From the IMG/VR virus record IMGVR_UViG_3300005613_000498, positions 1-20,367 of that record: 20,367 nucleotides of DNA, one strand, 5' to 3'. Shown here piece after piece: positions 1,820 through 20,367 of the stretch. Numbering within the stretch: the first letter of the stretch is position 1; every line of letters starts with the position of its first letter. A program made the translations under genes and the position numbers. This DNA is from a virus. The notes beneath the pieces are model-generated. The model was not told the origin of the DNA. It ran no database searches and worked only from the letters and a program-made list of their open reading frames with translations.

Positions 1820-2511
1820 CTTGTTAGTTGCATTTGTTTTTTCATTTGTTCTGCCTCTCGTTTCTTATTATCTTTGTCCCAAGCTAGCCAGTTGAAGCAT
1901 TCAATAACTCCTAGTTTAACTAAGTCGTTCATTTTTAGTATGTCGCCAGCACACATAAGCATGACTATGTTATACCATGTACGTGCCGTGTCGTTGTTGT
2001 CTTTTTGAATTTGTTCTTGTTGTTCGTCAGTTAGTTCATCATCAATTTCAAACAACCCAGAATATGATTTAAGCAACATCGTTCTATAGTTTGTATAAGC
2101 GAGGTAAGCTTTGTGGACATCGTTTATAGTGGTTGTATTAGGTAATTCGGTATTATACAATATATTACAAATATCAACAATATGTCGCCCCACACCTTGA
2201 TTCATATAAACTTCTAAATCAATAAATTGTCCTAAAGTTAATTCTTTAAAGTTAATTAGTTCGCCACCGGATAGTATTTTGTTGTATGTTGAATCTTCAG
2301 GATTAATTAAGACGTAAACTAAGGCTATTAATAATTCCAGTGTTTCGTCTGGTATTTTGTTTATCTCAGTTATCGGTATGTTTAATGCAGTTGAAACTAA
2401 TTGTTGGGGAGACGGATTATTGTTCTGTAATTCCATAAGTTGCCCCCACGTATCCAGAGTTAGTTTTTCTGGTAAATCATATTCAGCATCGTATATTACT
2501 AATTTATCCAT
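1816..2511 (-). CDS. Conserved phage protein, 231 aa; tail assembly chaperone candidate
   Basis: I do not recognise this protein with certainty. It is mainly helical. The central segment INFKELTLGQFIDLEVYMNQG (about 86-106) recalls a family found in Bacteroidetes phages beside tail-completion or tape-measure genes. The C-terminus is charged (DNKKREAEQMKKQMQLTR). Its position just before the tail-completion gene makes a tail-assembly or tail-chaperone role plausible, but the tape measure is several genes away, so this is weak. Its ATG follows the TerL stop by 16 bases, and the gap holds a 14-bp box that also precedes the tape-measure gene. It overlaps the next gene as ATGA. Confidence 0.6.
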   Translation of the reverse strand: MDKLVIYDAEYDLPEKLTLDTWGQLMELQNNNPSPQQLVSTALNIPITEINKIPDETLELLIALVYVLINPEDSTYNKILSGGELINFKELTLGQFIDLEVYMNQGVGRHIVDICNILYNTELPNTTTINDVHKAYLAYTNYRTMLLKSYSGLFEIDDELTDEQQEQIQKDNNDTARTWYNIVMLMCAGDILKMNDLVKLGVIECFNWLAWDKDNKKREAEQMKKQMQLTR

Positions 2512-2514
2512 CTG

Positions 2515-2528
2515 TCGTTAAATATAAT
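2515..2528 (-). promoter_or_regulatory. 14-bp box (ATTATATTTAACGA on minus strand) before the 231-aa gene
   Basis: On the minus strand ATTATATTTAACGA ends three bases before the ATG at 2511. The same 14 bases occur before the tape-measure gene (16646-16659). The core TTATATTTA resembles the Bacteroidetes -7 element (TAnnTTTG) only partly. It could be a promoter for a nearly leaderless message or a translation leader. Confidence 0.35.
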
Positions 2529-3748
2529 CACGCCACCCAGTTGTATGAACCTTTAGTGGCTTGGGTTTTGCGACAATAATTTGTTAAAGCAAGGCTAATA
2601 ACACAATCGTCATGCAATCCATTTGGGTGTCCGTATTTGACGGACCTTGTTTTTGGATTATAATCGTAAGTAAAATATCCCAGTTCGTCATATAAAGGAG
2701 AAAATAATTTCCTACTTGGGATACGGACGTTTTGTTCGTTGAAATCCAGAATTAAACCTTCAATTACCTCTTGTTTTGATTTGTTTGTAGTAATAAAAGG
2801 TTCTATATTGTTGTACTTCGCCTTAATCTGTTCGTACACCACGTCCCCCACACTATTAACTTCAATTAAAGTATTCGCGTTATACTTGCGTATAAACGAG
2901 GTTAAGTCATTAACCAAGTCGGCCCATTGTTGCTTATTGTTTCTGTATATGTCCAGCACGTTCCCGTGTTTATCCATTATTGTAGCGACTGAATAATCGT
3001 TTTGTTTTCCTAAATCAATTCCACAATACAATTGTCCTTCTCCCCTGGGATATTCATCATACGTGCATTTATCTATCCCCGTAAACACCTCACCTCCCCC
3101 CTCAATAAACGTTGCCATGTACTCCTGTTTAAATACGTTTTCAGGAAGTGTTTTTTTAGCATCATCAATTTCTTCTTTTGATATAAACGGAGTGTCTAAG
3201 CTAGTTCCCTTATACGATTTGTAATTTGGGTAATCTACGGATTCGCCTAGTTTAAATAAATCGTGAAACCAATTTTTACCTTTGGGGGTGGAAAGAAATA
3301 ATACTTTCTTACCACGTACGGCAAGAGTAGGGCGTATGGCTTCATACCATACTTCTCCTCGCATAAAAGCGGATTCGTCCAGTATTGCATAATCGAAAGT
3401 AAATCCTCGTATGTTATCGTATCGTTCACCACTACGGAAATATATTTCGCTATTTGTTCTAAGTTCAATTCTGGATTCACTAAAATTGCAAGTTCTAATA
3501 AGGTTAGTATGTCGTATTGCATTTTCTATATCTTTTTGAACTTTGTTTGCTTGACTATAAACAGGACTTACCCACAATATCTTACACGGCTTATTATTAA
3601 TAGCCCAATACAACAATAAATTCATCCCCATCAGCGACTTACCAAATTGTCGCCCAACCGAAACCACGTGGTGTTTAGCTGTACTATTTAATACACCATC
3701 AATAATTTCTCTTTGTTTTGTATGAGGATTAAACCCCGTTGCCTTCAT
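2528..3748 (-). CDS. terL: Terminase large subunit (packaging ATPase/nuclease)
   Basis: This 406-aa protein is the DNA-packaging motor. Walker A is GRQFGKS (residues 32-38). Walker B is YAILDE (120-125), followed by SAFM. The coupling motif is FLSTPKGKNW (151-160). The RNase H-like nuclease domain begins with YCGIDLGKQNDYS (acidic D245), continues with EVNSVGDVVYEQI, and ends with GLHDDCVISLAL, supplying the late acidic pair. The length is typical of compact TerL proteins. The ATG at 3748 lies 20 bases inside the TerS gene, so the two are likely co-translated. Catalytic residues in both domains look intact. Confidence 0.96.
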   Translation of the reverse strand: MKATGFNPHTKQREIIDGVLNSTAKHHVVSVGRQFGKSLMGMNLLLYWAINNKPCKILWVSPVYSQANKVQKDIENAIRHTNLIRTCNFSESRIELRTNSEIYFRSGERYDNIRGFTFDYAILDESAFMRGEVWYEAIRPTLAVRGKKVLFLSTPKGKNWFHDLFKLGESVDYPNYKSYKGTSLDTPFISKEEIDDAKKTLPENVFKQEYMATFIEGGGEVFTGIDKCTYDEYPRGEGQLYCGIDLGKQNDYSVATIMDKHGNVLDIYRNNKQQWADLVNDLTSFIRKYNANTLIEVNSVGDVVYEQIKAKYNNIEPFITTNKSKQEVIEGLILDFNEQNVRIPSRKLFSPLYDELGYFTYDYNPKTRSVKYGHPNGLHDDCVISLALTNYCRKTQATKGSYNWVA

Positions 3749-4067
3749 CTATCCTATTTTCAGTGTCGTTAATATCTGGACCAAATTCGAATTTCATATT
3801 CTTGAATAAGTCCTCTCCATCAGCACCTACTACTTCTTGTCTTGCTAATTTTGGAATCACATATTCGCTTAATTTAAGCATCAGTGTAATTGCCTCTTTT
3901 GGGTTTTCTTCAGCAACTTGACCTAACCATTCAGTCATGTTGTCTAAATTATCCTCCATTAGCCTTTGATAAGCTTCTTTAATTTTAGTAGTTGTCTTAT
4001 TACCAGCACCTTTGGGACGTCCGTTTGGATTCCCTGATACACCTTCTGTCCAGTTTGGATTAGCCAT
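3729..4067 (-). CDS. terS: Terminase small subunit (DUF5681-like)
   Basis: This 112-aa protein directly precedes and overlaps TerL. Its N-terminus NPNWTEGVSGNPNGRPKG is the DUF5681-type signature seen in small terminase subunits of many phages and prophages. It is followed by a helical segment (KIKEAYQRLMEDN...) and a stretch ending IPKLARQEVVGADG, which is common just before the TerL-interacting tail. It would recognise phage DNA and load TerL. The leader is AAAACTAA-TAATA-ATG, one of five minus-strand genes with this AAAACTAA motif. It overlaps the 70-aa gene before it by 8 bases. Confidence 0.85.
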   Translation of the reverse strand: MANPNWTEGVSGNPNGRPKGAGNKTTTKIKEAYQRLMEDNLDNMTEWLGQVAEENPKEAITLMLKLSEYVIPKLARQEVVGADGEDLFKNMKFEFGPDINDTENRIDEGNGV

Positions 4068-4272
4068 TATTATTAGTTTTAAATTTATTATATATGTTCA
4101 TAAGTTCTCTGTGAGTATTTGCTAAGCATTTACCACATGAAGTAGGACGTTTGTTAGTACCAAATATTCTGTTATAAACACTATACATCTTTTCTCTATC
4201 AGCAGGACTATAACGTTTTTGCTGTATAATTGATTCTAGGTAAGTTAATTCGTCGTTTGTTGGAGTATTCAT
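4060..4272 (-). CDS. Small conserved phage protein, 70 aa, unknown function
   Basis: This small protein is helical, and its centre reads YNRIFGTNKRPTSCGKCLANTH. One CxxC pair sits near residues 46-49, followed by a helix (RELMNIYNKF). The combination of IFG-N and CGKCL recalls small proteins encoded just upstream of terminase genes in Bacteroidetes phages. A single CxxC could bind metal only with partners or as a dimer. Its start overlaps the membrane-protein stop as ATGA and its 3' end overlaps TerS, so it belongs to the packaging transcript. Function is unknown. Confidence 0.7.
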   Translation of the reverse strand: MNTPTNDELTYLESIIQQKRYSPADREKMYSVYNRIFGTNKRPTSCGKCLANTHRELMNIYNKFKTNNNG

Positions 4273-4544
4273 AATTCTATCGTGTTTAATTTTCTAGTTA
4301 TTAATTCACTAACATACGCACCTACACCGGCAAATATAAATCCCCAGAAGAACGTAGTTATAGTATTTGACAAGACTACCCATGTGAACCACCATCCTGA
4401 ACATAACCCACAATTAAAGAGTTCGAAAGTATTTAGTTTTAAAGATTTGATTAGCCACAGATACGGCTTCGAATTCATTATCACAGCCCAACATATGCCA
4501 ATCGTAATTGATATTAGTAGTGTTTCTATCGTTGTAAGTTCCAT
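4269..4544 (-). CDS. Small membrane protein with CxxC motif (DUF1360-like)
   Basis: This 91-aa protein has an N-terminal hydrophobic segment (about 6-22, LLISITIGICWAVIM). After a polar stretch comes FNCGLCSGWWFTWVV (about 43-57), and then another hydrophobic segment (TTFFWGFIFAGVGAYV). The C-x-x-C followed by G-W/F-W resembles DUF1360-type small membrane proteins found in phages. It is not a clear holin. Its first 130 bases overlap the 3' end of the sigma-like gene in another frame, so about 43 codons are dual-coding if both starts are right. A later in-frame Met at residue 23 would shorten but not remove the overlap. It ends in an ATGA overlap with the next gene. Confidence 0.7.
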   Translation of the reverse strand: MELTTIETLLISITIGICWAVIMNSKPYLWLIKSLKLNTFELFNCGLCSGWWFTWVVLSNTITTFFWGFIFAGVGAYVSELITRKLNTIEL

Positions 4545-5070
4545 CTTTTATTTGTTTTATTTTGTTGTTAATTTTGTTTTTTAGTTTCTTTATACCACGA
4601 AGATATATTTTGCGAATTGTCGTATGTGGCATATTTAATTTTCTACCTAATAAGCTGTAGTTAGAACCATTTGTGTGGTACATCATTATGATTAAGGCTT
4701 CGTATTTTTCACCTGGAGTGCCTTGGTACATCTCATCTAATCCTAACATCAGTAATCTCTCCATCACATCTATCGAATAATCATACTCCTCATACTCTTC
4801 TTCCTTCGCCTCAACATCTAAGAAACTATCTCTGTATCTGTAGTGGAAAGGAGATGTACTACTTCTCCACTGATTCAGTCCTATTCTAGCGAGAAAGTAC
4901 CTTGCAGTTCCTGTATCTATCGAATCCTGGGATTTATCATGTTCCAGGAATATCATAATCACCTCATGTATAAAATCTTCATACAGATGTGGTTTCTCTC
5001 CTTTAGTAATATTATATAACCATTTTCTAATTTCATTGTAATTTTCCTGAATATATTGATTGGGGTTCAT
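4414..5070 (-). CDS. Sigma-70/ECF-like transcription regulator
   Basis: This 218-aa protein has the layout of a short sigma factor. A region-2-like segment reads YEDFIHEVIMIFLEHD (about 30-45), then ARYFLARIGLNQWRS. An acidic spacer (EAKEEEYEEYDYS) follows. A region-4-like helix-turn-helix reads SNYSLLGRKLNMPHTTIRKIYLRGIKKLKNKI (given here in pieces: SNYSLLGRKLNM, PHTTIRKIYLRG, IKKLKNKI). A 45-residue extension after the HTH overlaps the next gene. It is the second gene of the minus block, 11 bases after the zinc-ribbon gene, with leader AAAACTAA-CAAC-ATG. It is the best candidate in this genome to redirect host RNA polymerase to the phage-specific elements. Plain DNA-binding activity without a sigma role is also possible. 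Confidence 0.7.
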   Translation of the reverse strand: MNPNQYIQENYNEIRKWLYNITKGEKPHLYEDFIHEVIMIFLEHDKSQDSIDTGTARYFLARIGLNQWRSSTSPFHYRYRDSFLDVEAKEEEYEEYDYSIDVMERLLMLGLDEMYQGTPGEKYEALIIMMYHTNGSNYSLLGRKLNMPHTTIRKIYLRGIKKLKNKINNKIKQIKDGTYNDRNTTNINYDWHMLGCDNEFEAVSVANQIFKTKYFRTL

Positions 5071-5081
5071 GTTGTTAGTTT

Positions 5082-5378
5082 TTATAATTCACCTCTATAC
5101 CACCTTTGTATTGACCCTGTATTTGTTCTGTGTTTAAGTAATTGTGGCATATCGAATATCTGGGCATAGTGGTTTAGGCACCAATTGAATTCGTCCTCCT
5201 CAGTCTTAAATCCATTCCTTTCCCATCTCTTCACCCCCCTCCTTATTTTACTTTCATACATCGTCTCTTTATTACACGGACGACAATATGAGTGTAATTT
5301 ATCTAAGTTTTTTGTAAAAGAAGAGAATTCACTTACATCTTTTTCTTCTTTACATTTTGCACATACCTTTGTTTTCAT
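5082..5378 (-). CDS. Zinc-ribbon protein, 98 aa (HNH-associated type, no HNH core seen)
   Basis: Two CxxC pairs, CAKC (6-9) and CRPC (32-35), frame a short ribbon. The sequence KVCAKCKEEKDVSEFSSF is the pattern found at the N-terminus of many phage HNH endonucleases. The remainder (KIRRGVKRWERNGF..., NWCLNHYAQIFDM) is basic and helical and shows no HNH catalytic motif. It is the first gene of the minus block, 34 bases downstream of a promoter-like element, so it is probably expressed early. A nucleic-acid-binding regulatory role is likely but unproven; it could also be a decayed HNH protein. Confidence 0.7.
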   Translation of the reverse strand: MKTKVCAKCKEEKDVSEFSSFTKNLDKLHSYCRPCNKETMYESKIRRGVKRWERNGFKTEEDEFNWCLNHYAQIFDMPQLLKHRTNTGSIQRWYRGEL

Positions 5379-5412: not shown

Positions 5413-5435
5413 ATACATATTGCGAAAGAGTGGAA
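5413..5435 (-). promoter_or_regulatory. Promoter-like element M1 (TTCC-N11-ATATGTAT), toward first minus gene
   Basis: Read on the minus strand: TTCC, 11 mostly pyrimidine bases (ACTCTTTCGCA), ATATGTAT, then ACGCGACAACA. The ATATGTAT box ends 34 bases before the ATG at 5378. The same two boxes with exactly 11 bases between them occur at three other sites, two of them 30-34 bases before plus-strand start codons. The equal spacing in both orientations argues for a promoter. Confidence 0.6.
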
Positions 5436-5444
5436 GACACGAGA
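5413..5444. repeat. 32-bp imperfect direct repeat, copy 1
   Basis: ATACATAT, three variable bases, GAAAGAG, one variable base, then GGAAGACACGAGA. It matches 5792-5823 at 28 of 32 positions with no gap and in the same orientation. It contains the M1 promoter-like element on its complementary strand. The match extends beyond the promoter core (ACACGAGA), so it may also be an operator or iteron. Confidence 0.85.
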
Positions 5445-5476
5445 GGGGGTGAAGAGAATTTGAGAGAAGAGGAGAT

Positions 5477-5502
5477 GGGGAGATGGGAAGAGGGGATGGG
5501 GG
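5477..5502 (+). other. G-quadruplex motif in polypurine tract
   Basis: Plus strand: GGGG, AGAT, GGG, AAGA, GGGG, AT, GGGGG. These are four runs of at least three G with loops of 2-4 bases. It sits within a roughly 80-base purine-rich run (about 5424-5502) in an otherwise AT-rich genome. The motif is in the non-coding strand of the leader toward the minus block. Confidence 0.7.
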
Positions 5503-5707
5503 CGAATTTTTCACCTTATCCTTCCAGCCTCAACCATTCGCCTAATTTCTCTTTTCTATATAATACAGGACATATTAATAAATTTCAACATATCCCCTCC
5601 CCCAAATACCTAGTTTCAAAAGAAATAATTTATGCCAGCGAACATGGATTAAACGGATATTACAATAAAATCAAATTGACTAGGTACGTTTAGCATTATT
5701 CGCGGGA

Positions 5708-5786
5708 CTTGGTTTACCTGTTCCAAGCTAGTATTTCAGTAGCAAGTTTGGGGAAGAATATTTGAAACCGGAGTATCCCAACCGGT
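5708..5786. other. Possible structured RNA/hairpin cluster
   Basis: Two short hairpins are possible: CTTGG (5708-5712) with CCAAG (5723-5727), loop 10; and ACCGG (5767-5771) with CCGGT (5782-5786), loop 10. A further TTGGG/CCCAA pairing competes with the second. They lie immediately downstream of element M2 on the minus strand. Stems are only 5 bp, so this is tentative. Confidence 0.25.
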
Positions 5787-5791
5787 CATCG

Positions 5792-5814
5792 ATACATATC
5801 ATGAAAGAGAGGAA
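5792..5814 (-). promoter_or_regulatory. Promoter-like element M2 (TTCC-N11-ATATGTAT), minus strand, no ORF nearby
   Basis: Minus strand: TTCC, TCTCTTTCATG (11 bases), ATATGTAT, then CGATGACCGG. It is a near copy of M1 but no open frame longer than about 11 codons begins soon after it. A transcript from it would cross 400 bases of non-coding DNA before the gene at 5378. It could give a non-coding RNA or act only as a binding site. Confidence 0.45.
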
Positions 5815-5823
5815 GACACGAGA
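5792..5823. repeat. 32-bp imperfect direct repeat, copy 2
   Basis: This is the second copy of the 5413-5444 repeat, in the same orientation, 379 bp away. The four differences are the three bases after ATACATAT and one base between GAAAGAG and GGAAG. Confidence 0.85.
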
Positions 5824-5853
5824 ATTTTAAAAAGAAGTTTTTTTTCTTCGTTT

Positions 5854-5876
5854 TTCCTTTTTCCCACCATATTTAT
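5854..5876 (+). promoter_or_regulatory. Promoter-like element P2 (TTCC-N11-ATATTTAT), toward nuclease-like gene
   Basis: Plus strand: CGTTT then TTCC, TTTTTCCCACC (11 bases), ATATTTAT, TACCG. The second box ends 34 bases before the ATG at 5911, the same distance as M1 to its gene. The flanking CGTTTTTCC and ACCG are shared with P1. Confidence 0.6.
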
Positions 5877-5910
5877 TACCGCAAACATAACAACAACAAA
5901 AAACAACAAC

Positions 5911-6384
5911 ATGAAAAATTCCGGCAAAGCAAAAGTATACAACACTTGGAAATTAAACAGAAAAGTATTATTTTCAGGTTTAGAACACGGTTATAACACT
6001 TATCCAACAGATTTTGATATGATTTTTAATATAAGAAATGAGATTAATATTATCGTTGACGCCAAAGAAGTAGGCAAAAAACCAGTATTTGGTCAAACTA
6101 TTACTTACGTCAATATGACGGACTCTCTTGAATTAGCAGGAGTTCCAAGTTATGTAGTCTGGGTATCACACCCAGCAAGTGTTGAAGATATTATTTTATC
6201 TTCTTGCAGTGTGGAACAAATTTATCACGACGGGAAATTTATTACCAAAGATAAGATTTGTGAAGTATTTGGTTGTCCTCTTTCATATAAAGAATTACAA
6301 GAAATTCTTATGAAGAGACATGACGTTGAAGAGTATAATCCCCAGAAACATAAATTCGACAAAAAAAGATACCTTCCTTCGTAA
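5911..6384 (+). CDS. PD-(D/E)XK nuclease-like protein, 157 aa
   Basis: This is the first gene of the plus-strand block. The pattern looks like a small PD-(D/E)XK nuclease of VRR-NUC or Hjc type. YPTDFDMIF (31-39) supplies the acidic D34 or D36, and INIIVDAKEVG (45-55) supplies the D-x-K (D50, K52) at the end of a hydrophobic strand. Q62 follows, and then GVPSYVVWVSHP, the usual strand after the active site. It could act in recombination, resolution or host DNA breakdown. It is the only enzyme of DNA metabolism visible besides TerL. The ATG follows an A/C-rich leader (AACAACAAC) 34 bases from element P2. There was no search, so the fold is an inference; a non-nuclease is possible. Confidence 0.55.
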   Translation: MKNSGKAKVYNTWKLNRKVLFSGLEHGYNTYPTDFDMIFNIRNEINIIVDAKEVGKKPVFGQTITYVNMTDSLELAGVPSYVVWVSHPASVEDIILSSCSVEQIYHDGKFITKDKICEVFGCPLSYKELQEILMKRHDVEEYNPQKHKFDKKRYLPS

Positions 6385-6396
6385 AAAGAATCGTTT

Positions 6397-6419
6397 TTCC
6401 TCTTTTTTCACATATGTAT
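6397..6419 (+). promoter_or_regulatory. Promoter-like element P1 (TTCC-N11-ATATGTAT), toward small-gene chain
   Basis: Plus strand: CGTTT, TTCC, TCTTTTTTCAC (11 bases), ATATGTAT, AACCGAACAACA. The box ends 30 bases before the ATG at 6450. It lies between the nuclease-like gene and the small-gene chain and would let that chain be transcribed separately. It also contains an in-frame ATG (6414), which argues against using that ATG as the gene start. Confidence 0.6.
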
Positions 6420-6449
6420 AACCGAACAACAATTAAAACCCCAATCAAC

Positions 6450-6734
6450 ATGAAAAAATTACTTTTAACTCTCTCGGTCTTAGTACCAGCAATCGGTTTT
6501 GGGCAAATTGATTTTGTTAACTTTCACAAACATCAAGATAGTCTTGAAGTTAAGTATACAGAAGACGTATACAACTTAACTCTATTATGTCAGGAACATG
6601 ACATCTCGTTTCGAGAATTTAGTCGCAAGTTTAATCTTTTATACCAAGGATATCTTGATGATTCTAGAGTTGTAAGAAATCGTTTTGGTATTCCAACATC
6701 TCGTCTTAACAAAAATAAATCTTGGACAAGATGA
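6450..6734 (+). CDS. Secreted small protein with signal peptide, 94 aa
   Basis: I chose the start at 6450 (MKKLLLTLSVLVPAIGFGQ) rather than the in-frame ATG 36 bases upstream. The internal ATG has the CAAC-ATGAAA leader used elsewhere, gives a clean signal peptide, and leaves element P1 outside the gene. The Lys-Lys start, hydrophobic core and GFG-Q end are typical of Bacteroidetes signal peptides, with likely cleavage near residue 18. The mature part (about 76 aa) is polar and helical (HKHQDSLEVKYTED..., CQEHDISFREFSRKF) and ends basic. I do not recognise it. A periplasmic role, perhaps in lysis, is possible. Its stop overlaps the next start as ATGA. Confidence 0.7.
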   Translation: MKKLLLTLSVLVPAIGFGQIDFVNFHKHQDSLEVKYTEDVYNLTLLCQEHDISFREFSRKFNLLYQGYLDDSRVVRNRFGIPTSRLNKNKSWTR

Positions 6735-6886
6735 TTGCCGACGACTTTTACACCCAACTAGTAGTAGCAATTGCACACTACACCCAAGAAAAGTCAGTAT
6801 TTGAAGGTTTTGTAGAAGCTGAAAAAGCACAAATTATATTAGATGATTTTTTAAACTACGTAGAAAAACAAGATTATGATATTTAA
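6731..6886 (+). CDS. Small acidic protein, 51 aa, unknown
   Basis: ATG at 6731 overlaps the stop of the secreted-protein gene (ATGA). The product begins MIADDFYTQLVVAIAHY and ends NYVEKQDYDI. It is acidic, probably helical, and has no Cys. The case for it being real is positional: it fills the space between neighbours and is coupled at both ends (11-base overlap with the next gene). Function unknown. Confidence 0.6.
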   Translation: MIADDFYTQLVVAIAHYTQEKSVFEGFVEAEKAQIILDDFLNYVEKQDYDI

Positions 6887-7052
6887 GAACTATTACGACT
6901 ATTGCAAAAAAACAAATAAGCCTTATATTTATCAGTGTTATAAACATAGTATGATACTAAATAAATTAAAGATAAATTTAAGAAAATTAAAGTGTTATTT
7001 GACTAACCAAGAATACGAACCTTACCCACAACCTAAAAACAGATTAATATGA
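6876..7052 (+). CDS. Small basic Tyr/Lys-rich protein, 58 aa, unknown
   Basis: It begins MIFKNYYDYCKKTNKPY at 6876, inside the 3' end of the preceding ORF, and stops at 7052 with the TGA overlapping the next ATG. It is strongly basic, with two Cys in the first third (CKK, QCYKH) and a Pro-rich end (EYEPYPQPK). Composition suggests nucleic-acid or ribosome contact, but nothing specific is recognised. It belongs to the coupled chain of short plus-strand genes. Confidence 0.55.
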   Translation: MIFKNYYDYCKKTNKPYIYQCYKHSMILNKLKINLRKLKCYLTNQEYEPYPQPKNRLI

Positions 7053-7171
7053 TTTCCCCTGAAAGAACAAAATTGCTAAAACAAACTCGTACATACTATA
7101 AGTGTAAAAACAAAGCGAGTTTAATTCAAAAAAGAATCGACTTCATCAAATCCAAAACTCAAACAACATGA
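7049..7171 (+). CDS. Very small basic protein, 40 aa, unknown
   Basis: ATGA overlap on both sides: the start at 7049 lies in the previous stop and the stop at 7171 lies in the next start. The product begins MISPERTKLLKQTRTYYK and is basic and likely helical, about one quarter Lys/Arg. It may be a true microprotein or simply a translated spacer that couples the genes on either side. Confidence 0.5.
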   Translation: MISPERTKLLKQTRTYYKCKNKASLIQKRIDFIKSKTQTT

Positions 7172-7440
7172 AATACTCAAGAAAACAAATATTTAATATT
7201 ATTACTAATATATTAGTTTTAGCCTTTATGGGATTTTTATCTGTAGGAATTTTTAAATCAGTATTTAATTCTCCTACTAAGCAATACCAAGAATCAGTTA
7301 AAAGAATCGAACTCCAGTTTAGCGAGACGGAATTACAAATTTTCCAAATCGAAAAAGACGTAAAAGAAATCGGTAGTAGAATCGACTCATTAGAACAAAA
7401 AATCGATAAGCTATTCTACAAACCAACAGAACCAATTTGA
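7168..7440 (+). CDS. Membrane-anchored coiled-coil protein, 90 aa (inner-spanin-like candidate)
   Basis: N-terminal basic residues (MKYSRKQ) precede one membrane segment at about residues 9-30 (IITNILVLAFMGFLSVGIF). The rest (about 40-82) is a periplasmic-type coiled coil with regular hydrophobic spacing (IELQFSETELQIFQIEKDVKEIGSRIDSLEQKI, seen at positions 47-79). An N-in, single-pass, coiled-coil protein of this size is the layout of an inner spanin or Rz-like protein. Many other membrane proteins share it. It is last in the plus block, coupled by ATGA to the preceding ORF, with a terminator right after it. Leader CAAACAAC-ATGAAA. Confidence 0.6.
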   Translation: MKYSRKQIFNIITNILVLAFMGFLSVGIFKSVFNSPTKQYQESVKRIELQFSETELQIFQIEKDVKEIGSRIDSLEQKIDKLFYKPTEPI

Positions 7441-11267: not shown

Positions 11268-11295
11268 AAAAAAGGGGAACTTATGTTCCCCCTTT
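11268..11295 (-). terminator. Rho-independent terminator after major tail protein
   Basis: On the minus strand: GGGGAAC, loop ATAA, GTTCCCC, then six T (11273-11268). This is a classic stem plus U-tract, 26 bases past the stop at 11321. It would separate the scaffold-capsid-tail-tube transcript from the portal-fiber unit. Confidence 0.88.
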
Positions 11296-19000: not shown

Positions 19001-20367
19001 TATAAATTATTTTGAGTATTAATTTTATTTGCCATTTCGAAGTCAATACTAACTTGGAATAATCTATCTTTTCTAAAAGTACGTTCAGTCCAAGAGTCAG
19101 TAGTTATTACTACGGGCAACCATTCAGTTTCACCTTCAAATCTAACTTTAACTTCTGGGCTAATAAATAAATTCTTTAAGTAGTTAGCTTCATTATCGGT
19201 TAGGTATCCAGTCGTGGCGACATAATTATCTTTTACTACCGAACTATATTGTGTTAAACCGCGGTCCGTATTCGAGACACTAAATGTGATGTCGTCGTAA
19301 GTACCTTCGAGTTTATCAAAGTTATTACGTGTTATATTGTAAGATTCTTCGTGTCGTTTTCTAAATGTCCAGTAATCTTTAAGTCCATATGAATTAACCC
19401 AGCTTAGTTGTATGTGTGAATAATCACTACCGTCTTCACAGTCTAAGATAAATCTATATCTTCTAGTTAATCTAAAAGCTTCTTGGTCAGTAGAACTTGA
19501 AGGTACATCAGGGTCAGGTTCATTTGGAATACTAACACCATTATACATCCCAAAAACATCATAATAAGCAACATCATCTCCTAAGGCATCTAAATTAGCT
19601 TGAATTGTCGCATTTGATTTACCACATGCAAAGCTAACAAATCCCATGACGTTTTGACTATGTAGTTGTGTGTCGCCAGCATCAGTAGGGTATACGGCAA
19701 AATAACCTCCGTTTGCTTGAGTATTTTGTATGATATCGGAATCTTGTAATACCCCAGCTTCATTATAATAAAGAACAACAAAGTCAGTTAATACAGGGTC
19801 TCTATCGGGACCATCACCTGATTCTTGGGATATTAAGAAAGTTAAAGTATAATCTTCGTCTCTAGTAATTTTTCTGGGAACAACATATAAATCACCTACA
19901 AGTTCTGTGGTATCAGGTACTCTAAAATCATTATATGAATAATCAGTTAAAGCTTCTCCCTTATTAGTATTACTAGGGGTAAACCACCAGTATTGACCAC
20001 CCGTGCCCGTAGACCAACCACCACCAAAATTAATTAAGCTACTATCGTATGCTACCTCATCATATCTTTTTCTTGCAGGTATGACATAATATTTTTGGTT
20101 AGTAGTTGCAGTGGAGGTAAAGTCGCCAGTAGTAGTATCTTCGTATCCGTAATCAATATTAAAAGATTGTTCTTCATGTCCCAAGTGATAAAAACACAGG
20201 GGAATTGTCTCTAAACTAGGGTAGTATACGCATTTATGTTTGATAACGTTTTGAATATCAAAGTGGCAGTAGCCAACTAAATTTGGACTTTGTCTTAATT
20301 CACCATATACAACAGAGGCACTTTGTATACGAATAGCATTTTTAATACCATCTTCGTCAGTATCAAA
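19000..20367 (-). CDS. Distal tail protein, C-terminal 455 codons (start at left end of window)
   Basis: The frame stays open from the stop at 19000 to the window edge; joined with 1-204 across the repeat it gives 482 aa. The internal TTG at 20184 is not the start. The first ~90 residues are beta-rich. The middle is a Gly/Asp/Thr-rich region (INFGGGWSTGTGGQYWWF). The last third, from RLTRRYRFILDCEDGSDYSHIQLSWVNSYGLKDYWTFRKR (pieces: RYRFILDCED, IQLSWVNSYGLKDYWTF) to YLKNLFISPEVKVRF, LPVVITTDSW and RKDRLFQVSIDFEMANKI, is a segment common in Bacteroidetes phage tail genes beside the hub. It probably forms part of the tail tip. Coupled by TAATG on both sides. Confidence 0.78.
   Translation of the reverse strand, partial: FDTDEDGIKNAIRIQSASVVYGELRQSPNLVGYCHFDIQNVIKHKCVYYPSLETIPLCFYHLGHEEQSFNIDYGYEDTTTGDFTSTATTNQKYYVIPARKRYDEVAYDSSLINFGGGWSTGTGGQYWWFTPSNTNKGEALTDYSYNDFRVPDTTELVGDLYVVPRKITRDEDYTLTFLISQESGDGPDRDPVLTDFVVLYYNEAGVLQDSDIIQNTQANGGYFAVYPTDAGDTQLHSQNVMGFVSFACGKSNATIQANLDALGDDVAYYDVFGMYNGVSIPNEPDPDVPSSSTDQEAFRLTRRYRFILDCEDGSDYSHIQLSWVNSYGLKDYWTFRKRHEESYNITRNNFDKLEGTYDDITFSVSNTDRGLTQYSSVVKDNYVATTGYLTDNEANYLKNLFISPEVKVRFEGETEWLPVVITTDSWTERTFRKDRLFQVSIDFEMANKINTQNNL
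20245..20367. repeat. Terminal direct repeat, right copy
   Basis: These 123 bases are identical to 1-123, without mismatch. See the left copy for interpretation. Confidence 0.97.

Follow-up and report, generated by a model that had tools for sequence, protein, structure and literature searches.

A conserved promoter-like element and an associated structured RNA in a one-kilobase hub of a small phage genome

Four copies of a promoter-like element lie between and just inside two gene sets

The window analyzed here is an entire virus contig. It measures 20,367 bases and begins and ends with the same 123 bases. Because these ends constitute a 123-bp terminal direct repeat (left copy, 1-123; right copy, 20245-20367), we take the window to be a complete genome with a unique part of about 20,244 bp (~20.2 kb); the repeat is present despite the record being classed as linear. 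One set of leftward genes starts at position 5378 and continues around the circle as far as 7532; a second, short set reads rightward and occupies 5911-7440. The first leftward gene (5082-5378, minus strand) encodes a 98-residue endonuclease-VII-like zinc protein that matches PHROG endonuclease VII families with E-values of 1e-6 to 1e-7, and the second (4414-5070, minus strand) encodes a 218-residue, ECF-like two-domain sigma factor, designated SIG and recognized by PHROG match and by fold. The first rightward gene (5911-6384, plus strand) is kept in relatives, as judged by protein alignment, and its product of 157 residues bears PD-(D/E)XK-like residues, seen by eye only. A PHROG search with this protein returned no match, Pfam gave none above cut-off (best, 12.9 bits), and no relative was found in the genome collection searched or among phage isolates. 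The second rightward gene (6450-6734, plus strand) is a short exported-protein-like ORF. The portal protein resembles those of Nonlabens phages and the terminase resembles those of contigs binned with uncultured Flavobacteriaceae, similarities that point, indirectly, to a Bacteroidetes host. A bidirectional terminator-like hairpin (11274-11292) lies in the long leftward operon, 3' of the capsid region, with similar hairpins at the corresponding place in three relatives (L024, L025 and L007).

Four exact matches to the pattern TTCC-N11-ATATKTAT, proposed in an earlier note on this DNA, are located within 1 kb between, or just inside, the two gene sets. Element 1 (TTCCACTCTTTCGCAATATGTAT; 5413-5435, minus strand) ends 34 nt before the ATG of the first leftward gene at 5378, element 3 (TTCCTTTTTCCCACCATATTTAT; 5854-5876, plus strand) 34 nt before that of the first rightward gene at 5911, and element 4 (TTCCTCTTTTTTCACATATGTAT; 6397-6419, plus strand) 30 nt before that of the second rightward gene at 6450. 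Element 2 (TTCCTCTCTTTCATGATATGTAT; 5792-5814, minus strand) faces no ORF and instead heads a structured RNA. These positions and gaps are as originally claimed, and the mostly pyrimidine spacer is seen in all four copies. The related flanks are likewise real, with CGT upstream and ACCG/ACAACA downstream, but they are weaker and shifted by one base between the strands. Dinucleotide shuffles of the window contained a mean of 0.04 matches (maximum, one) against the four observed. When two mismatches were allowed, 14 matches were obtained versus 10.2 expected by chance, an excess not above chance, and we therefore regard only four copies as real; the earlier note had found no further ones by eye. 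Since the genome is complete, these four represent the genome total. A site with two mismatches at 11286 was rejected as a copy; it overlaps the 3' side of the terminator-like hairpin.

The elements are conserved at orthologous positions

Three genes served to fetch relatives: those for the terminase and the sigma-like protein, and the first rightward gene. In L024, L025 and L007 all four elements are found at orthologous positions, two per direction, and these positions are maintained while the sequences between the elements have diverged. Orthologs of element 1 are present in L024 (4802, minus strand), L025 (5139, minus), L007 (8444, plus) and L031 (200, plus); those of element 2 in L024 (5052, minus), L025 (5394, minus) and L007 (8196, plus); those of element 3 in L024 (5166, plus), L021 (9964, plus) and L026 (1104, plus); and those of element 4 in L024 (5679, plus), L025 (6018, plus) and L007 (7560, minus). 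The counterparts of element 3 in L025 and L007 keep ATATGTAT, but their upstream box is weak. Additional copies, each preceding a gene or an RNA, were seen in L021, L026, L031 and L143.

In a position weight matrix built from 22 copies, seven of the eight ATATKTAT positions are invariant. A run of T lies 14-17 bases before ATATKTAT and is followed by CC or GA, the pyrimidine preference of the spacer is strong, and A-C-C-G is weakly favored after ATATKTAT. The TTCC upstream box, which holds for the copies in the window, is only one of two states: the upstream half in L024, L025 and L007 reads TTTTCC or TTTTGA, and TTGA is frequent in relatives. Reversal of the whole pattern yielded no matches in 102 loci; this reversal and a different spacing were used as controls in place of the reversed word TATKTATA, which overlaps the element and is a poor control. 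In L009, another member of the wider family, short leftward genes (2460-4990) are accompanied by a promoter-like unit that is also repeated but differs from the element, TTTTTTATCTCAGRAWTNTTG..TATATTTA, a hint that multi-copy promoters of their own exist in other members.

The close proximity of the elements to start codons could also be accounted for by an RNA or translation-start element within a 5' leader. Among relatives, however, anything from 3 to 34 nt separates the element from the ATG, and in one case what follows the element is a non-coding RNA. Furthermore, because only 3-4 nt lie between the element and the ATG in L024 and L021, transcripts starting there would be leaderless or nearly so, which disfavors a role inside the transcript. 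We consider this explanation extremely improbable.

One leftward copy precedes a conserved structured RNA

In the direction in which element 2 points, no ORF conserved in relatives is present for about 350 bases. Just after the element begins a previously unannotated structured RNA of ~200 nt (5594-5791, minus strand), which ends in a run of G residues. Its 5' hairpin (5767-5786, minus strand) consists of ACCGG, a 10-nt loop and CCGGU, and the stem is complementary across relatives. A pseudoknot helix pairs a 5' arm, ACCUAGU (5679-5685, minus strand), with a 3' arm, ACUAGGU (5608-5614, minus strand), and is complementary in all rows of the alignment, with four two-sided changes. The G-run, GGGGGAGGGG (5594-5603, minus strand), lies directly 3' of the pseudoknot.

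RNAalifold, applied to the window, L007, L024 and L031, predicted 33 pairs, 13 of them with two-sided changes. The pseudoknot helix was first spotted by eye and then tested; with this helix the model comprises 37 pairs, all 148 of 148 cells in the same four phages are paired, and 17 pairs have changed on both sides. None of 500 shuffles reached this. Sliding the partners reduced pairing to 27-45%, although this test is biased toward the structure, which was derived from those same sequences. MAFFT did not align the RNA reliably with L025, L021 and L143, and all three were left out of the pair counts. A covariance model of the nested part detected L027 (E = 3e-16) and L066 (E = 1.5e-13), neither of which was used in its construction, and also matched part of L025. 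Folding of single sequences gave no convincing z-scores, the structure being visible from the alignment only, and Rfam searches of the hub and its relatives at a permissive threshold returned chance-level matches, none over the gathering threshold.

The anatomy of the RNA recurs among the eight phages compared. The 5-bp 5' hairpin is found mostly with a similar 10-nt loop, and its stem differs in sequence and is still complementary in L007, L024, L025, L027, L066 and L008. Although their sequences differ, the two arms of the pseudoknot match each other as complements over 8-10 bases in seven of the eight (L008 is weak), and a run of 5-10 G follows the pseudoknot in all eight. Relatives of the RNA exist in L007, L024, L025, L031, L027 and L066, and probably in L008. 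In the window, L007, L024 and L025 the 5' hairpin starts 2-6 nt after ATATKTAT, and a transcription start site just after this box would therefore fit. The RNAs of L027 and L066 have ATATTTAT nearby, with the upstream box missing at the usual spacing, and that of L027 precedes a structural gene rather than the zinc-protein gene.

A structured RNA between a promoter and the first gene of a long operon is also known from processive antitermination RNAs such as HK022 put and B. subtilis EAR. The RNA described here shares this arrangement with put, EAR and the leaders of phage late operons, but unlike them and other long leader RNAs it has no Rfam match. Guessing from its anatomy, it could be a trans-acting RNA, a leader that alters elongation, or, given a G-run reminiscent of ColE1 RNA II, an R-loop replication primer.

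Other ORF-less stretches were observed in this family. In L021 (4934-5180) and L143 (1280-1529, minus strand) the element is directly followed by about 230 nt of conserved sequence that looks different; the two stretches are 91% identical, show paired changes by eye (CCAGGUUACAAUGCCUGG / CCAGAUUACAAUGUCUGG), and may represent either another type of RNA or a diverged version of this one. Three more distant terminase relatives, L010, L014 and L017, have ORF-less, hairpin-like stretches upstream of the sigma-like operon (e.g. L014, 5825-6124), possibly another leader RNA.

The element occurs in other phages with specific spacing

Exact scans of 2.9 million viral contigs were carried out for TTTTCC or TTTTGA at the N11 spacing, with N14 as the control. 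At N11 there were 87 matches, of which 31, representing 17 distinct site sequences, immediately precede a gene; none of the 25 matches at N14 does so. The raw counts are inflated by related contigs, and the distinct counts are the fairer comparison: 17 of 62 distinct sites are upstream of a gene at N11 and 0 of 16 at N14. Many of the upstream matches belong to T4-like Bacteroidetes phages, in which the site lies between the prohead protease and scaffold genes, often directly 3' of a terminator-like hairpin. The isolate Flavobacterium phage immuto carries TTTTGA-N10-ATATTTAT between the same two genes, at 125504-125527 of NC_055915. The earlier note had called the element phage-specific; this stands insofar as it belongs to phages rather than hosts, but it is not private to one phage, being found in relatives and in unrelated T4-like phages. 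Among open-licence papers, a literature search found no description of the element.

Two further observations concern the T4-like phages. Immuto also has a near-match, TTTTGACTCTCCTTTCCTATTTAT (NC_055915.1:146918-146941), ahead of its tail sheath gene, which suggests that it possesses another late promoter belonging to the element's class. In L185, L149, L144, L177 and L110 an AT-rich hairpin just after the element starts the leader, and the leader stems (AUGCUAC..GUAGCAU, AUGCAAU..AUUGCAU) vary yet remain complementary.

Comparison of the element with known promoter classes

Bacteroidetes sigma-A promoters have a TAnnTTTG -7 box with TTTG 17-23 nt upstream. The element resembles them in its T-rich upstream box and TA-containing downstream box; its gap from TTTG to TATKTAT, however, is about 13 nt rather than 17-23. 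With ATATKTAT, a spacer of 10-11 nt and no TAnnTTTG, a sigma-A promoter is ruled out, in agreement with the original remark that the element does not fit TTTG-N17-21-TAnnTTTG. A sigma-54 promoter is also excluded, as the invariant bases of that class (-24 GG / -12 GC) are absent from the 22-copy matrix. In ECF-type promoters a -10 box of the CGT type follows the -35 box by about 16-17 nt; in the element, the preference for A-C-C-G after ATATKTAT is weak, and TTTTCC-N16-TATNAC is a possible alternative way of reading it. The six promoter motifs mapped in F. psychrophilum include sigma-A, sigma-54 and CGT-box motifs, and none resembles the element, which lacks an invariant CGT box such as that of the ECF-type motif SM6 (PMC9723704).

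The element and T4 late promoters share an AT-rich -10 box and a phage-only distribution upstream of virion genes. T4 late promoters consist of a single TATAAATA box and are read by the gp55 sigma factor, whereas the element has a second box, a fixed spacer of 10-11 nt and the box ATATKTAT; a T4-type late promoter was rejected on the basis of the different box and bipartite layout. The phage in the window, moreover, is not T4-like and encodes an ECF-like sigma rather than gp55.

A long, multi-copy, clustered element common to divergent units might instead be the binding site of a phage regulator near promoters, either an activator site or a repressor operator, and an operator could look alike. 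Sigma-70-like matches in the window are at chance (83 versus 84.7), and a scan with the sigma-A consensus gave three matches versus 0.9 expected, none of them at an operon start. The element is also directional, pointing at a downstream gene or RNA, and where it ends 3-4 nt from the ATG, in L024 and L021, there is no room for a separate downstream promoter. A regulator site is thus an improbable explanation.

A sigma-like protein is a candidate reader of the element

The assignment of the second leftward gene as sigma-like, made in the earlier note, is borne out by concordant PHROG, Foldseek and VIA matches. SIG matches a PHROG sigma factor family at 2.6e-7. Against Pfam, its scores lie below the curated cut-offs both for sigma70 region 4 (E = 0.0011; 18.9 bits, cut-off 24.1) and for region 2 (13.8 bits, cut-off 24), and for this reason we call it ECF-like rather than a filed member of the family. 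An AlphaFold2 model built from a 37-sequence alignment has a pLDDT of 86. The top 13 rows of a Foldseek search with this model are ECF sigma factors (best E-value, 0.013), and VIA-align places residues 1-89 on sigma-2 (Z 7.7, 3.8 A) and residues 96-174 on sigma-4 (Z 7.7, 2.9 A); these scores are middling, as expected for small helical domains, and the ranked families agree. Like ECF (group 4) sigma factors, the model contains sigma-2 and sigma-4 and no sigma-3, although sequence similarity to them is low.

Homologs of SIG adjoin TerS/TerL through much of the family, and none was detected among phage isolates. At the cut-offs tested, the SIG family was not found in the T4-like element carriers or in immuto, where one very weak local match of 100 residues was seen. 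SIG is consequently not needed for the element to exist. Both T4-like records examined encode a gp55-like protein, to which SIG shows no detectable similarity. The SIG proteins of L021 and L026 share only about 30% identity with the window's SIG, yet their elements are the same, so no co-change of sigma and element is apparent. The dedicated sigma/promoter pair suggested at the outset is a plausible hypothesis; taken as a step by itself, the proposal that SIG is the main reader seems to us about evenly balanced.

SIG is itself made from the hub, and the first round of transcription would therefore need another reader. This requirement, and the occurrence of the element in phage groups that have different sigma-like proteins and the host as their common factor, would be explained if the promoter were read by an uncharacterized host sigma factor on which different phages had converged. 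In 199 host-family genomes the relaxed pattern occurs 30 times, against seven for the reversed control, in line with this idea. Most of these relaxed matches, however, are TTTTCA-ATATTTAT, just three strict copies, combining TTTTCC or TTTTGA with ATATGTAT, occur in the 199 genomes, and none of the six F. psychrophilum motifs is similar (PMC9723704). Reading by a host sigma factor is therefore unlikely, if less so than a regulator site.

Discussion

Orthologous conservation, spacing-specific enrichment upstream of genes and the placement of one copy at the head of a conserved RNA agree with the initial proposal of a promoter serving both directions. Judging from sequence comparison, we regard the element as representing a genuine, conserved class of promoters that has a new RNA associated with it. 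The analysis shows where the sites lie, that they are conserved and enriched at specific positions, that the RNA covaries and that SIG has a sigma-like fold; from these we infer that transcription starts at the elements, exactly where it starts, and that SIG reads them.

The explanation that we think probable as a whole is that of one phage promoter class, [TTTT(CC or GA)]-N10/11-[ATATKTAT] with a pyrimidine-rich spacer, concentrated in a 1-kb hub. ATATKTAT would take the role of the -10 element and the T-rich box that of the upstream box; transcription would begin about 5-7 nt beyond ATATKTAT. Element 1 would feed an operon running from the zinc protein through the sigma factor and terminase to the virion genes; element 2, in tandem upstream, would give a transcript that begins with the folded RNA; and the other two copies would fire rightward. 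The four copies thus seem to start all RNAs of the genome, including the folded non-coding RNA, and all transcription of a 20-kb genome could begin in the hub. The most likely reader would be the host core RNA polymerase with the phage's own ECF-like sigma factor, which, being encoded in the leftward operon, would amplify its own expression.

A possible but more doubtful reading is that the class is private to Bacteroidetes phages and is read by differing phage sigma factors, ECF-like in the small siphovirus-like genomes and gp55-like in the T4-like genomes. The new pseudoknotted, G-run RNA of the small phages would then have a function of its own, such as priming replication through an R-loop or acting as an antiterminator leader.

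Bacteroidetes hosts have an unusual primary sigma factor, and to our knowledge little is known of how their phages take over transcription. The promoter hub described here brings together a short motif, a fixed spacer and a candidate sigma factor within 1 kb of a complete small genome, and is therefore directly testable. In addition, the motif has led to a phage RNA that is strongly conserved, had gone unannotated and is covered by no Rfam family.
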